Made by a program: the position numbers and the translations under genes | Shown here: positions 10,335-17,768 of the stretch, one piece after another | Position numbering within the stretch: the first letter of the stretch is position 1 | Layout: the number at the start of each line of letters is the position of its first letter | NCBI RefSeq assembly: GCF_001475935.1 | Contig: NZ_LDQA01000028.1 | Coordinates: forward strand, 186,001 to 250,000 | Source: Aureimonas ureilytica | GTDB taxonomy: Bacteria > Pseudomonadota > Alphaproteobacteria > Rhizobiales > Rhizobiaceae | Length of the DNA: 64,000 bases | Direction of reading: 5' to 3' | Notes under the pieces: model-generated | Databases searched by the model: none | Told to the model about the DNA's origin: nothing | The model's input: only the letters and a program-made list of their open reading frames with translations

Positions 10335-10694
10335 TCAGGCGACGGCGGAGCGCCGATCATCGGTCGATTCGCGCTGTTCGAGTTTTTCGGCATTGGCGTA
10401 TTCCGCCTCCGCCTCTTCCAGCGAGATTCGGGCGGCGTTCATCTGAATGCGCAGGTCGCCTACGGAATTCATCAGATTGTCGCGGCGGGTCCGGGCGGCC
10501 TTGGCGAAGGTCGGATAGGCGAAATGGGCCATATCCGTGATGCCGGACTTCTTTTCTTCGTTGCTGATCTGAGCGTCCAGTTCGGCCGCCATGCGCTCGA
10601 ATTCATTGAGCATCAGTTGGAGCTGCTCCACCTGCCGCCGCTTCTCCGTCACCTTGAAGCGGCTCAGGCGCATGATATTCTCACGTTTCGGCAT
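10335..10694 (-). CDS. fliJ: FliJ-like flagellar export protein
   Basis: 119 residues from ATG 10694, with GAGGAGAG about nine bases upstream and a GTG one codon before. It is almost entirely alpha-helical with coiled-coil heptads (LSRFKVTEKRRQVEQLQLML, and later RISLEEAEAEYANAEKLEQR), as expected for FliJ, the stalk that couples the FliI ATPase to the export gate. FliJ is poorly conserved, so the call leans on the N-terminal pattern seen in rhizobial FliJ and its place next to ctrA. A CtrA-type box lies 93 bp upstream. FliI is not in this window. Confidence 0.72.
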   Translation of the reverse strand: MPKRENIMRLSRFKVTEKRRQVEQLQLMLNEFERMAAELDAQISNEEKKSGITDMAHFAYPTFAKAARTRRDNLMNSVGDLRIQMNAARISLEEAEAEYANAEKLEQRESTDDRRSAVA

Positions 10695-11068
10695 CACGCT
10701 TCACTCTCCTCTTCCATAGGGCCTCTCACATGTGGCCCCGTGACGCGTCGCGAGGTGAGGTTTCGGGCAAGCCTCGAAAGCTAGCTTTAACCACCTGTTT
10801 ACGCGCACCGTTAATCATATGGGGCGAGGATTTAAGGCCCAGTAAATCGAACGGTTCAAACACACGTCTTCTTTGTTTCTCAGCTCGCAGTTTGTGGCTT
10901 CAAGGTAACACCGGCGATCTTAAGCAAAAGCTGCCACAACAATTCGACAGGAAGCCAGAAATTGAAGCGATTGTTAACCATTCGATGCGAAGCTCGATCC
11001 AGCAGAACACGAACTCCAACCTCGTCGGTTTCAAGGCGATCGACTGGGCTGACGCAGAGGAATAGATG
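10695..11068. promoter_or_regulatory. fliJ-ctrA divergent control region
   Basis: There is no supportable gene in this 374-bp gap. It holds a near-full CtrA box at 10787-10802 (TTAA-N7-TTTAC against the known TTAA-N7-TTAAC), a TTAAT at 10811-10815 and a half-site TTAACC at 10974-10979. This suggests CtrA controls its own gene and fliJ. I see no GANTC methylation site close to the ctrA start. Confidence 0.6.
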
Positions 11069-11764
11069 ATGCGCGTTCTTTTGATCGAGGATGACAGCGC
11101 GGTCGCGCAAAGCATCGAACTCATGCTGAAGTCCGAGAGCTTCAACGTGTATACGACCGACCTGGGCGAGGAAGGCGTAGATCTCGGCAAACTGTATGAT
11201 TACGACATCATCCTGCTGGATCTGAACCTCCCCGACATGTCCGGCTATGAAGTTCTTCGGACGCTTCGTCTGGCCAAGGTCAAGACGCCGATTCTCATCC
11301 TGTCCGGCATGGCGGGAATCGAGGACAAGGTTCGCGGCCTCGGGTTCGGCGCGGACGACTATATGACCAAGCCCTTCCATAAGGACGAGCTGGTTGCCCG
11401 CATTCATGCGATCGTGCGCCGCTCCAAGGGCCACGCTCAGTCGGTGATCGTGACCGGCGATCTGACGGTGAATCTCGATGCCAAGACCGTCGAGGTCAAC
11501 GGCCAGCGCGTCCACCTGACGGGCAAGGAATATGCAATGCTGGAGCTGCTTTCGCTCCGCAAGGGCACGACGCTCACCAAGGAAATGTTCCTGAACCATC
11601 TCTATGGCGGCATGGACGAGCCGGAACTGAAGATCATCGACGTCTTCATCTGCAAGCTGCGCAAGAAGCTGGCGACCGCGACCGACGGCAAGAACTATAT
11701 CGAGACAGTCTGGGGTCGCGGCTATGTGCTGCGCGAGCCGGACGCAGATACCCGCGCAGCCTGA
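11069..11764 (+). CDS. ctrA: Cell-cycle response regulator CtrA
   Basis: 231 residues, the usual length. ATG 11069 is preferred over the adjacent ATG 11066 because AGAGGA then has better spacing. The receiver domain (1-120) has acidic EDD at 8-10, the phosphoacceptor in [14 protein letters not shown], and [13 protein letters not shown] with the conserved Lys. The C-terminal OmpR-type winged helix includes [20 protein letters not shown] and [13 protein letters not shown]. CtrA is the master regulator of division, chromosome replication and flagellar genes in alphaproteobacteria. ChpT, encoded 750 bp away, is its phosphodonor in the CckA-ChpT-CtrA relay. Confidence 0.98.
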
Positions 11765-11789
11765 TTTCTCCAGGCCTGCCGCCGACAAC

Positions 11790-11826
11790 AAAGCCCGTGA
11801 GCCCATGAGGGGCCGCGGGCTTTTTG
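11790..11826 (+). terminator. Rho-independent terminator of ctrA
   Basis: Stem AAAGCCCG ... CGGGCTTT followed by a T-run, 25 bp after the ctrA stop. Confidence 0.88.
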
Positions 11827-12030
11827 CTGTGCCCGCTCATGGGTCGATCAGCTTCGGAAGGATCGCGTGCGACGGCCTTTGCGCCCTGCTTCGAGCGCAC
11901 GCGTGCTGGCAGCCGGCGCGGAAGGCGAGACGACTTCGAACGCCATCGACGCCCCGTTCCAAGCCTCGCACCCGAATCACGCCGTCCGTTTGTCAGGACA
12001 GGCCTTCATCGCTTGGGAGCTGCCGGAGCC

Positions 12031-12405
12031 TCAAGCGGCCACGGGGAGATAGGGCTGGACCCAGGCCGTCAGCGTCGCGCGATCGAAGGGACGAAACAGG
12101 AAACCGCTGGCGCCCGCGCGCTTGCTGCGGGTCATCAATCCGAGATTCGATTCCACCAGCGAAACGAGAATCGGTGCTCTCGGCACCGCGCCGGCGCGCA
12201 AGGTTCGCAGCGCCACATCGACCGGCATATCGGGCATGGTGGCCGACAGGAGAACCAGATCGAACCCATTGCTTCTCTGAGCGAGAGCCGCCAGCGCCTC
12301 GTTCATGTTGAGGGCGCCCACCGTCTCCGCACCCAGGCCGGAAAGAACGCGGCTGGCGACCTTCAGGACGATGTTGTTCTCGTCGATCACAAGACAGGAG
12401 GGCAT
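12031..12405 (-). CDS. Receiver-like protein without phosphoacceptor Asp
   Basis: 124 residues from ATG 12405. The fold is a stand-alone receiver: CLVIDENNIVLKVASRVLSG opens it, with the acidic pair as Asp-Glu. The strand that normally ends in the phosphorylated Asp reads DLVLLSATMPDMP, with Ser in place of Asp, and the conserved Lys of the K-P-F motif is Arg (FLFRPFDRATL). It is thus probably not phosphorylated and may act as a protein-binding pseudo-receiver. It sits 113 bp downstream of chpT on the same strand. It is not CpdR, which keeps its Asp. Confidence 0.78.
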   Translation of the reverse strand: MPSCLVIDENNIVLKVASRVLSGLGAETVGALNMNEALAALAQRSNGFDLVLLSATMPDMPVDVALRTLRAGAVPRAPILVSLVESNLGLMTRSKRAGASGFLFRPFDRATLTAWVQPYLPVAA

Positions 12406-12518
12406 GGCGCGGGACTCTCGGCACGGGGGCAATACCCCACCCTAGAGCCTCGCGCTTTTCCGTTCGGTTCCCAAACGCGGCGAAGGAAGCGTAAAGGAAA
12501 CCGGAAAAATGAGGGCGA

Positions 12519-13154
12519 TCAGTCGCGCTCGACGCTGAACACCGCCGTTTCGCCTTCCTGCGCCAGGGTGATCGTCGCCCCGCACTCGCGAGCCAGAAGC
12601 AGCGTGTAATATTGCTGGACGCCATGGGCGTCGATCGGCTCGGCCATGGTCTCGCCGCCGAGCAGCGCGCGGAAGGTCGCCGGCACGCGCAAGGGCTTGC
12701 CACTGGCCGTCAGATTGATGCGAAGGCGCGGCTCCAGTTCCTCGACGCGCACCGTGACGGTGCGGCCGCGCGGCACGGAAGCGTTGGCGATCACGATCAG
12801 ATTGAGAACCAGCTTGGCGACGTTTTTCGGAACATAGGCGCGCTGGCCTTCCCAATGGAGTTCCGCCTTTTCGAAGGACATGAAGCCTTCGGCCACCGTC
12901 TTGGCGTCGCCCATATCGATCTGGGCGACGGTGGAGCCCGACGAGCCGTAGGCGATCCGCGCGAACTGGAGCTTGGCGACGGCGCTCTGCGTCGAACGCC
13001 GCACCAAGGCCATGGCCTCGGGATCGTTCGGCATCTCGTCCAGAAGTTCCAGACCGGCCTGCACCGCACCGACGGGAGAGATGATGTCGTGGCACAGACG
13101 GCTGGCGAGAAGAGCGGCCAGATCCGCAGCGGACAAGTCGGGCAGGTGCGTCAT
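12519..13154 (-). CDS. chpT: Histidine phosphotransferase ChpT
   Basis: 211 residues. The N-terminal dimerisation helices contain the phosphorylated His in ASRLCHDIISPVGAVQAGLE, the ChpT hallmark. The C-terminal part is a degenerate Bergerat-like domain (LVLNLIVIANASVPRGRTVT, later AHGVQQYYTLLLARECG) that does not need ATP. ChpT passes phosphate from CckA to CtrA and CpdR, linking the two key outputs of the alphaproteobacterial cell cycle. It is transcribed toward the pseudo-receiver gene and convergently with ctrA. TTAAAA at 13178 may be part of a weak CtrA half-site upstream. Confidence 0.93.
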   Translation of the reverse strand: MTHLPDLSAADLAALLASRLCHDIISPVGAVQAGLELLDEMPNDPEAMALVRRSTQSAVAKLQFARIAYGSSGSTVAQIDMGDAKTVAEGFMSFEKAELHWEGQRAYVPKNVAKLVLNLIVIANASVPRGRTVTVRVEELEPRLRINLTASGKPLRVPATFRALLGGETMAEPIDAHGVQQYYTLLLARECGATITLAQEGETAVFSVERD

Positions 13155-13442
13155 CTCGGCTCCGTGCGTCCTGATGGTTAAAATTGTCTGATACGCCGCC
13201 TAACATGTGGCGGGCCGCCACACGAGGGCGGATCGCGGCTTCCTCCCATTTCCGCCGCTCGCGTGCGGTAACGGCAACAGGCTAGCCCGCCGCGCGGATG
13301 CCGCTCTTCGTCGTTCGGGCACTCAGCACACGGCTTTTGCGCTTTTGTTCCGCCATCTTAGGATTTCGGAAACCATGTCAAATCTAGGCTGTGCCGAACA
13401 TGCGCAGCCGCACGCGCCCGCTCGTTCCGAGGGATACGATCC

Positions 13443-14036
13443 ATGCAGCGCCTCCTCCGGCCACTCCGCCTTCTGTCTCTCGCCGCTCTGACGATGGGAG
13501 CCACTCTGTCGCCCCCGCTTCTCGCGCCGGCCTCGGCTCAGCAGAAATCGGGCGGTGGCTATACGATGCAGGAGATCGTCACCGAAGGGCACCGCTTCTT
13601 CGGCGCGACCGCAGGGGGCCTTGCCACCGTCATCGAGCGAGCCTTCCAGGAGCGCGGCCTGCCGAACGGCTATATTCTCGGCGAGGAAGGCTCGGGCGCC
13701 TTCATCGGCGGCCTGCGCTACGGCGAGGGCACGCTCTTCACCAAGAACGCGGGCGAGCATCACGTCTATTGGCAAGGTCCGTCGATCGGCTTCGATGCCG
13801 GGGGCGACGGGGCGCGCACCATGATGCTGGTCTATGATCTGCCCTCGGTGAACAGCCTCTACGGGCGCTATGCCGGTGTGTCGGGCAATGCCTATCTCGT
13901 GGGGGGCGTCGGCATGACCTTGCTCCAGCGCGATTCCATCACGCTCGTTCCGATCCGCACGGGGCTCGGCGCGCGTCTGGGCGTCAATATCGGCTATCTC
14001 AAACTGACGCCGGCGCCCACCTGGAACCCGTTCTAA
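13443..14036 (+). CDS. eipA: DUF1134 periplasmic protein (EipA-like)
   Basis: 197 residues. A signal peptide with Arg-rich start and LAPASASA-type end (cleavage near AQQKS, residue 33) precedes a DUF1134 core: MQEIVTEGHRFFGATAGGLA, then IGFDAGGDGARTMMLVYDL and GVGMTLLQRDSITLVPIRTG. In Brucella the homologue EipA is a periplasmic protein needed for envelope stress resistance; here the role is inferred. It lies 288 bp beyond divergent chpT. The symbol is assigned by family resemblance only. Confidence 0.82.
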   Translation: MQRLLRPLRLLSLAALTMGATLSPPLLAPASAQQKSGGGYTMQEIVTEGHRFFGATAGGLATVIERAFQERGLPNGYILGEEGSGAFIGGLRYGEGTLFTKNAGEHHVYWQGPSIGFDAGGDGARTMMLVYDLPSVNSLYGRYAGVSGNAYLVGGVGMTLLQRDSITLVPIRTGLGARLGVNIGYLKLTPAPTWNPF

Positions 14037-16872: not shown

Positions 16873-17396
16873 TCTTCTTCACCGCCGACACGCATTTTTC
16901 CGATCCGCGCATTCTGCGCTTGGACAAGCGCCCCTTTCCCAACCTCGCCGCACATGACGACGCGCTGATCGAACAATGGAACGCGGCGGTCGGACCGGAG
17001 GACGAGGTCTGGCATCTCGGCGATTTCGCCAAAGGAACAGCCGACGAAAAGGCCACCCTTCTCGCTCGGCTCAACGGGCGCAAGCATCTCGTTGCGGGCA
17101 ACAATGACGACGAGGCGACGCTGAGCCTCCCCGGCTGGAGCAGCGTCTCGTCCTATCGGGAACTGGTGGTGGACGGCCGAAAGCTGGTGCTCTGCCACTA
17201 CGCGTTTCGAACCTGGAACGGCAGCGGCAAGGGAGCGCTCAATCTCCACGGCCATTCGCACGGCAAGCTGATGCCGATGTCCGGTCAGTATGATGTCGGG
17301 GTGGACGTGTTCCCGTTTCGGCCCGTGACGCTCGGCGACATTCTCATATCGCGACGGCGGCGAAAGCCGGAAACGACATCAGTGGGCGAGTTTTGA
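16869..17396 (+). CDS. Calcineurin-like metallophosphoesterase
   Basis: 175 residues. Metal-binding motifs are in order: FFTADTHFSDPR (D-x-H), WHLGDFAKG (GD), AGNNDDEATL (GN-N/H-D), CHYAFRTW and NLHGHSHGK (GHxH). It is a compact single-domain phosphoesterase of the type found in phage and bacterial DNA-repair or RNA-processing clusters; substrate unknown. It is coupled to the DUF2161 gene by a four-base overlap, so a joint nucleic-acid function is plausible but inferred. The last 18 bp overlap the convergent response-regulator gene. Confidence 0.88.
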   Translation: MIFFTADTHFSDPRILRLDKRPFPNLAAHDDALIEQWNAAVGPEDEVWHLGDFAKGTADEKATLLARLNGRKHLVAGNNDDEATLSLPGWSSVSSYRELVVDGRKLVLCHYAFRTWNGSGKGALNLHGHSHGKLMPMSGQYDVGVDVFPFRPVTLGDILISRRRRKPETTSVGEF

Positions 17397-17768
17397 GGAG
17401 ATGTTCCGCAGCGCCTGCACGATCGAGGCCGGCGGATAAGGCTTGGCGAAGAAGAGCCCGTTTTCCGGCAGATCTTCGTCCGTCACCTTCACATGGCCCG
17501 ATGCGATAAAGATCGAGACCGGAGGCCAACGGTCGCGCACCGCTTGGGCGAGCTTCAATCCGTCCATGGAACCAGGCATATCGACATCGGTGAAAAGGAC
17601 GCGGATGTCGGAATGACGCTCCAGAAGCCGGATCGCCTCGTCTGCGTTCGACGCCGCATAGGCCTTGAACCCTGCCTCCTCCACGAGATCGACCGCGTCC
17701 CACAGCAGAAGAGGTTCATCTTCCACGACGAGTACGGCGAAATGGTTCGGGTCGAAGGATTGGGCCAT
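17379..17768 (-). CDS. Stand-alone response regulator receiver
   Basis: 129 residues, a single receiver domain. The acidic pocket is VVEDEPLLL, the phosphoacceptor Asp is in LFTDVDMPGSMDGL, the Thr/Ser position is FIASGH and the conserved Lys is LFFAKPYPPASI. No output domain follows, so it acts by protein contact or as a phosphate sink, as is common in rhizobial HWE-kinase systems. No kinase is adjacent. It overlaps the metallophosphoesterase gene at the 3' ends. Confidence 0.9.
   Translation of the reverse strand: MAQSFDPNHFAVLVVEDEPLLLWDAVDLVEEAGFKAYAASNADEAIRLLERHSDIRVLFTDVDMPGSMDGLKLAQAVRDRWPPVSIFIASGHVKVTDEDLPENGLFFAKPYPPASIVQALRNISSKLAH

Follow-up and report, generated by a model that had tools for sequence, protein, structure and literature searches.

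A receiver-like protein between chpT and ctrA of Aureimonas ureilytica: a CheY lacking its phosphoacceptor aspartate, probably left from a chemotaxis operon and possibly kept for motility

Among the closest described counterparts of the protein considered here are receiver-like proteins that work without being phosphorylated. The Cle proteins are derived from CheY, act on the motor and interact with FliM; their phosphorylation residues are dispensable and an arginine of helix 4 is needed (PMC5677366), and a C-terminal arginine-rich extension, with the tandem motif [YF]xGP[DE][RK]R, binds c-di-GMP (PMC5677366). Osp of Rhodobacter sphaeroides functions unphosphorylated and is tied to the CckA–ChpT–CtrA relay and to swimming (PMC9430884); it is CtrA-activated, its neighbours are a tetR-type and a hypothetical gene, and CckA has been shown experimentally to be its partner (PMC9430884). 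Pseudo-receivers that are still functional also include FrzS of Myxococcus and a domain of ShkA of Caulobacter (PMC1974792, PMC7010744). In Sinorhizobium meliloti, SMc00653 carries the annotation of a putative two-component receiver domain protein (PMC12542648) and lies one locus tag from ctrA, SMc00654 (PMC4433202). Clr, a cyclic-nucleotide receptor, activates its promoter in the presence of cyclic nucleotides (PMC10127613), and Clr lowers motility in that species (PMC5498481). By tag order and annotation we take SMc00653 as a putative orthologue of the gene studied here. The Brucella locus as published comprises picC, ctrA, chpT, eipA and bspD, the excerpt naming no receiver gene (PMC11580434). 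Among open-licence papers, as represented by the excerpts retrieved, we found no study of the pseudo-receiver protein, SMc00653 being merely mentioned, and none of an operon of che genes in the chpT–ctrA interval.

The gene lies in a 64 000-nucleotide stretch of the A. ureilytica genome, the whole of which was analysed and is referred to as the window. The features on which the argument depends are as follows.

11066–11764, plus strand: ctrA, convergent with the pseudo-receiver gene (NCBIfam NF045991, 427.1 bits, cut-off 350).
12031–12405, minus strand: pseudo-receiver gene, 124 amino acids, probably descended from a cheY whose che operon was deleted (translation, Pfam, structure model, tree and gene order).
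12091–12093, minus strand: codon for Arg105, where receivers have a conserved Lys (CheY Lys109; alignment).
12112–12156, minus strand: residues 84–98, running from the loop that precedes helix 4 through the helix to the next AG, rich in the best-conserved positions of the Asp-less clade (conservation counts).
12157–12159, minus strand: codon for Leu83, where receivers have a conserved Thr/Ser (CheY Thr87; alignment).
12244–12246, minus strand: codon of Ser54, at the phosphoacceptor Asp position (CheY Asp57; alignment).
12379–12384, minus strand: codons of D8 and E9, the acidic pair, its first Asp still conserved (alignment).
12519–13154, minus strand: chpT, histidine phosphotransferase, upstream of the pseudo-receiver gene across a gap of 113 bp (NCBIfam NF046018, 282.3 bits, cut-off 240).
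13443–14036, plus strand: eipA, envelope integrity protein, divergent from chpT; a neighbour outside the proposed mechanism (domain search).

The pseudo-receiver gene is an uninterrupted ATG-started frame of 124 codons plus stop, overlapped in this GC-rich stretch by other long frames. Its product belongs to the PF00072 receiver family, scoring 41.1 bits with Response_reg (cut-off 30.2, E 2.2e-10) and showing a CheY-like alpha/beta fold in a structure model of mean pLDDT 94.4 that was built with a 51-row alignment. In both structure comparisons Vibrio CheY4 provided the top two solved matches to the model, and the profile found 131 distinct chains of solved structures at E 1e-12 or better; CheY is the majority among the 60 best of these, the first being a designed protein. 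Since the VIA list for the model also includes Spo0F, DivK, PleD and others, the fold indicates a receiver and nothing narrower. With the NCBIfam CheY model the protein scored 36.3 against a cut-off of 189, which is no test of CheY function, because the intact CheY of locus L193 in the order-level sample described below misses the cut-off too (82.6). Three PHROGs matched the protein, all of them without a name, and a scan of viral contigs found no relatives.

The first-pass annotation had described a receiver-like protein with Ser in place of the key Asp and Arg in place of the conserved Lys, and both replacements are present (Ser54 and Arg105). It had overlooked a third catalytic loss, Leu83 at the position of CheY Thr87, so that Asp, Thr/Ser and Lys, the residues of a phosphorylatable receiver, are all replaced. 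The Mg-binding acidic pair is present (D8 E9), D8 being found in 26/26 and 42/43 of the two sets of clade copies introduced below. The suggestion of the first-pass annotation that the protein cannot be phosphorylated draws support from these residues and from the fixation of the Asp loss throughout a clade; as judged from the residues, switching by Asp phosphorylation is almost certainly excluded.

Several other elements of the surroundings were recorded. A FliJ-like small protein adjoins ctrA (10335–10682, minus strand), scoring 29.4 bits with the Pfam FliJ model (cut-off 28.4) and falling below the cut-off of the NCBIfam FliJ model (43.8 vs 50.45). A second single-domain receiver, encoded at 17379–17768 on the minus strand, keeps both Asp and Lys and weakly resembles the CpdR and CckA receiver models. 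CtrA-type boxes with one mismatch or fewer occur seven times in the whole window against 1.5 expected: three, each with one mismatch, lie at 10787–10977 upstream of ctrA, four are far off and none is near chpT or the pseudo-receiver gene. Upstream of the orthologues, TTAA-N7-TTAA with at most one mismatch was found in 16/103 cases as against 20/515 letter-shuffled sequences, a weak excess over a crude control. The Clr-type box, scanned for in its commonly known form, had no exact match upstream of the 103 orthologues and, with two mismatches or fewer, was not enriched (19/103 vs 140/515 letter-shuffled). Upstream of the window gene there was neither a Clr-type nor a CtrA-type box, and no sigma-70-like promoter was found in 11700–13500.

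Orthologues were sought in 121 genomes of the GTDB family with a profile built from 51 relatives; the GTDB genus of the window, g1, is Aureimonas, and A. leprariae (L228), which bears the name 'Aureimonas', falls outside it. The profile matched 97 of the 121 genomes at E 5.7e-29 or better, and none of the other 24 gave a match better than 1.3e-21. Altogether 130 loci were examined in the family, the window and L031–L159. A receiver gene is present at 103 of these, in 96 cases between convergent ctrA and upstream chpT; four of the remaining gene-bearing loci have ctrA but no chpT in the stretch, two have chpT alone and one has neither, and in 98/103 the gene follows chpT in the same orientation. 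Four of the 27 gene-less loci come from genomes that carry the gene elsewhere (G014, G027, G050 and G107), and 20 of the 27 retain ctrA and chpT, with frame ends 73–212 bp apart in 16 and 458–2961 bp apart in four. In one genome without the receiver gene at this place (G017; L069, 908–1618), a 225-amino-acid frame that looks acetyltransferase-like by eye fills a chpT–ctrA gap of 716 bp; this genome has the flagellum and CheA markers despite the missing gene.

Residue counts across the family were made on 103 rows, 26 inside an Asp-less clade (16 Aureimonas and 10 other Aurantimonadaceae-like) and 77 outside it. The Asp position holds Ser in 16/16 Aureimonas of genus g1, and Ala in seven and Ser in three of the ten other clade rows; outside the clade it holds Asp in 74, Glu in two and Thr in one. 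These separate changes outside the clade are Glu in L135 (G036) and L121 (G099) and Thr in L147 (G095); G036 is also without FlgI, and Glu at this position could mimic the phosphorylated state. A further set of 43 loci from named clade genera (Aureimonas, Aurantimonas, Jiella, Consotaella, Mangrovicella, Antarcticirhabdus, Fulvimarina and others), which were found with Asp-less queries and overlap the family genome set, has Ala in 21, Ser in 17 and Gly in five. By the position rule chpT is upstream in 41/43 of them, with ctrA as well in 33 of those; L249 has a chpT outside the position rule, and L233 has neither chpT nor ctrA in the stretch. The Lys position is Lys in 77/77 rows outside the clade and in 10/10 of the clade rows outside Aureimonas, and Arg in 16/16 Aureimonas; the Thr position is Thr in only 11/77 family rows outside the clade. 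At position 102, which corresponds to CheY Tyr106, the ten non-Aureimonas rows of the clade have F, Y or I, a point against the explanation favoured below. The first-pass annotation had regarded orthologues that retain Asp as a sign of a local mutation: such orthologues do exist outside the clade (74/77), but none exists inside it (0/26 and 0/43), and both a local mutation and a sequencing error at this position were rejected because the change is clade-wide.

The position beside chpT has a probable explanation in an operon that now survives in other families. At order level 31 loci were sampled (L160–L190), and 16 were extended, 14 of them chosen for having a receiver close to ctrA, which leaves the extended sample biased towards che genes. 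In ten of these 16 (L191, L192, L193 and L196–L202, from eight families) the order is chpT-cheA-cheW-cheY-cheB-cheR followed by convergent ctrA; for L193, Pfam confirmed CheB, CheY, ChpT and a CheA that carries a receiver at its C terminus, and CheW and CheR were read from frames. Four others (L194, L195, L203 and L204, of families f6 and f16) have chpT-cheY in a stretch that contains no cheA, cheW or cheR and no separate cheB, and their lone chpT-adjacent cheY has intact Asp and Lys. L206 has che genes with no chpT detected, and L205 has none of these genes. Among the 31 short stretches eight contained chpT; a receiver gene stood beside it in three (L163, L164 and L168), and five had chpT near ctrA with no receiver beside it (L178, L182, L185, L187 and L188), so retention of cheY by chpT is no rule.

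A receiver tree of 96 rows and 112 columns, made by a quick search and carrying a long-branch warning, with inner forks that are weak owing to the few columns, placed the window-type proteins, the che-cluster CheYs and the chpT-linked CheYs in one group of 63 rows (SH-aLRT 98). Twenty-one CheYs encoded at other places in family genomes, including two in the window's own genome, stood apart (support 92). Within the group, 48 window-type rows held together (94), as did the 18 sampled Asp-less rows (99), from which it follows that a single loss of Asp, at the base of the Aurantimonadaceae-like clade, probably founded that clade. The 12 outgroup CheYs, eight from operons and four chpT-linked, have Asp in 12/12, Lys in 12/12 and Thr in 10/12. 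On the strength of the tree support of 98 and the shared place downstream of chpT, the window gene is CheY by descent, and we regard it as almost certainly a vertically inherited cheY, the remnant of a chpT-linked che operon. Its adjacency to chpT would then be inherited from the operon formerly at that spot. We infer that the che operon was deleted rather than inserted, and its position between chpT and ctrA suggests an old physical link of chemotaxis with the CtrA relay.

The gene is under purifying selection. Among close Aureimonas pairs dN/dS values were 0.014/0.186, 0.062/0.551 and 0.110/0.479, with 0.183/1.000 for the window against L031; the ratio is about 0.07–0.4 in the closest pairs, two less close ones reaching 0.35–0.40, and higher in distant pairs, which are near saturation. 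Over 120 Aureimonas pairs the median pN/pS was 0.56 for the pseudo-receiver, 0.41 for chpT and 0.04 for ctrA. The distribution of conservation along the protein was assessed on the 26 family Asp-less rows; the 43 named-genus loci were left out of this test, having been found via the helix-4 pattern, and a version including them, with 47 distinct rows, is partly circular. Helix 4 had a mean entropy of 0.56 bits in the Asp-less rows, as against 1.43 in the other family rows and 0.96 among the 12 outgroup CheYs; the corresponding values for the loop before helix 4 were 0.67, 1.87 and 0.36 bits. The Asp-less clade is younger than the outgroup set, and its entropies are generally lowered thereby. 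Of the 30 most conserved positions in the Asp-less rows, 12 fall in residues 84–98 where 4.0 are expected (p 4.6e-6); the same count is six in the rest of the family and one in the outgroup, and the helix-4 result holds with the 23 rows obtained through ctrA alone. By these alignment counts constraint in the Asp-less clade is concentrated on helix 4. The loop after the Asp site has an entropy of 2.08 in Asp-less rows, 2.12 in Asp-keeping relatives and 0.66 in the outgroup; because it is equally free in the relatives, its erosion preceded the loss of Asp and is no mark of it. Position 95 is K or R in 76/77 family rows outside the clade and 26/26 inside, and L, M or I in 12/12 outgroup CheYs. 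K95 is a derived residue that the other family members share, and N87 and T92, also derived, are close to fixation in the Asp-less clade. R93 and R96 of helix 4 are invariant in alignment A2, and K15 and R19 of helix 1 are likewise conserved. CheY binds its partners, including FliM, through the alpha4-beta5-alpha5 face, and we consider the helix-4 face of the pseudo-receiver a putative partner-binding surface.

As a marker of flagella we used FlgI, which is absent from 22/121 family genomes; FliM had been tried and was rejected, the Pfam model having missed the window's own genome and matched only 23/121. Presence of the pseudo-receiver gene goes with flagella, imperfectly. In the family FlgI is absent from 14/24 gene-less vs 8/97 gene-bearing genomes (Fisher p 3.9e-7), which leaves 10/24 gene-less genomes that have FlgI, and 89/97 gene-bearing genomes with it and eight without. 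In Aureimonas it is absent from 5/5 gene-less and 0/16 gene-bearing genomes, but the five gene-less genomes form one clade and so count as one event. On a species tree of 125 genomes made from CtrA and ChpT, two short proteins (13/121 family genomes absent, two pruned), presence and absence of the gene required 13 changes by parsimony. Of the 14 gene-less groups on the tree nine were wholly without FlgI, four had it and one was mixed, and thirteen were without CheA throughout; six gene-bearing groups were without FlgI. In a test of correlated evolution the dependent model beat the independent one for the gene and FlgI (LR 26.8, p 2.2e-5), the order of gene loss and flagellum loss not coming out of the correlated model; for the gene and CheA the values were LR 27.6 and p 1.5e-5. 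A sign test restricted to well-supported branches had three or four independent pairs and was far from significance. CheA was rejected as a marker, since it is absent from 22/24 gene-less but also from 36/97 gene-bearing genomes, a weak match in G067 (E 4.7e-4) being counted as present. In Aureimonas it is absent from 5/5 gene-less and 1/16 gene-bearing genomes, G275 having the gene and FlgI without CheA; FlgI fits better than CheA within Aureimonas, and the two fit about equally family-wide.

The explanation that we favour, to which as a whole chain we assign a probability of about 0.58, is that the pseudo-receiver is a CheY remnant that cannot be phosphorylated on Asp and is kept for a function in motility. 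Our working hypothesis is that cheA, cheW, cheB and cheR were deleted in the lineage of the window's family and that cheY alone remained next to chpT. The lone cheY lacks the switch Thr in most lineages and has in helix 4 a basic K95 that is absent from the operon CheYs; the ancestor of the Aurantimonadaceae-like clade probably lost the phosphoacceptor Asp, once, and in Aureimonas the Lys is gone too. The resulting protein would escape Asp switching and work via a helix-4-centred surface on the alpha4-beta5-alpha5 face, providing a phosphorylation-independent input to motility by binding the switch complex in competition with true CheY, much in the way of the Cle proteins, and not by sequestering ChpT. 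Since presence of the gene goes with flagella, a motility input is the likeliest job, and a role in motility rather than the cell cycle is, taken by itself, somewhat more probable than its opposite; that the protein acts at the flagellar motor, by putative binding there, is a more tentative proposal to which we give rather less than even odds. Motility genes are CtrA targets, and the motility link is therefore also compatible with an action on the CckA–ChpT–CtrA relay.

Such an action, corresponding to the decoy or modulator of ChpT that the first-pass annotation had argued from adjacency, is the strongest of the alternatives, and we consider it unlikely. The pseudo-receiver would attach to ChpT at its DHp-like part, or to CckA at the transmitter, accept no phosphate and lower the phosphorylation of CtrA and CpdR, in the manner of Osp. 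Osp, a single-domain receiver-like protein, is a precedent: it inhibits CckA directly and still functions with the D51N change (PMC9430884). The residue pattern of the window protein is unlike that of Osp, in which Asp is kept and the acidic pair and Lys are absent. Its gene keeps the same-strand place downstream of chpT nearly throughout the family, convergent ctrA being usually there as well, and families f6 and f16 also keep cheY alone beside chpT; the adjacency, however, existed before the phosphorylation residues were lost and the operon accounts for it, so the argument from position is weakened. It is weakened further by the tendency of the gene to vanish with flagella, chpT and ctrA mostly staying together, as they do at most gene-less loci. 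Receivers contact their phosphotransferase mainly by helix 1 and the active-site loops. The conservation of the Asp-less proteins sits instead at helix 4, a weak point against the modulator, as helix 1 also has conserved residues in K15 and R19.

ChpT might also have been involved in a different manner. The cheY of the chpT-che-ctrA cluster could have been a third receiver client of ChpT, besides CtrA and CpdR, that once wired CckA–ChpT to the motor, the Aurantimonadaceae protein being its end state, a constitutive or ligand-gated brake that binds the motor. If true, this would account for cheY standing alone beside chpT in families f1, f6 and f16, and a motor brake with a new helix-4 motif would be a class of CheY-derived motor effector distinct from Cle. 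We regard this as a speculative and rather improbable extension, made less likely by the five order-level chpT loci that have no adjacent receiver.

A little less probable again is that the protein regulates some other process, with a ligand or the protein's own abundance as the switch, and that flagellated habitats are a mere correlate. The six gene-bearing groups without FlgI would fit this, and the Clr-activated promoter of SMc00653 (PMC10127613) means that amount may be the input; but Clr also lowers motility in S. meliloti (PMC5498481), which fits a motility function equally, the Clr-type box is not enriched upstream of the 103 orthologues, and SMc00653 is equated with the window gene by locus-tag order and annotation, not by sequence. 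That the gene is a functionless relic in decay is very improbable: its active site has been eroded stepwise, it evolves faster than chpT and ctrA, and there are the 14 gene-less groups on the tree, but the frame is open in all 26 + 43 Asp-less copies examined, dN/dS is low in the closest pairs, conservation of helix 4 exceeds that seen in the outgroup CheYs, and the gene is found in 16/16 FlgI-bearing Aureimonas.

The derivation from cheY supplies an origin for a widely shared and seemingly little-studied gene between the two best-known cell-cycle genes of the family, and would offer a stepwise example of a chemotaxis switch protein that sheds phosphorylation and still has a job. It is also a caution that function should not be read from adjacency to chpT where that adjacency is inherited from an operon no longer there. 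Contact with the motor, with ChpT or with CckA becomes directly testable.

Set beside known systems, the window protein differs from the ShkA pseudo-receiver of Caulobacter, a domain in a larger protein, in being single-domain; the FrzS pseudo-receiver is also part of a larger protein, and to our knowledge neither has a link with chpT or with cheY descent. Osp resembles it in being receiver-like and single-domain and in having a broken catalytic set, but by its published description Osp keeps Asp and is without the acidic pair and Lys, a pattern unlike the one found here. With the Cle proteins it shares descent from CheY, and the phosphorylation residues that are dispensable in Cle are lost in it; Cle has a C-terminal extension that binds c-di-GMP, whereas the window protein stops right after helix 5 (residues 109–119) at residue 124, and by eye neither a Cle-type C-terminal arginine-rich region nor [YF]xGP[DE][RK]R is present in it. 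The CheY of the chpT-linked operon, its probable ancestor type by gene order and tree, shares K15, R19 and D8 with it and is of nearly equal length. The outgroup CheYs differ in always keeping Asp and Lys and in having L, M or I, not K, at position 95, and the operon CheY, unlike the window gene, is accompanied by cheA, cheW, cheB and cheR.
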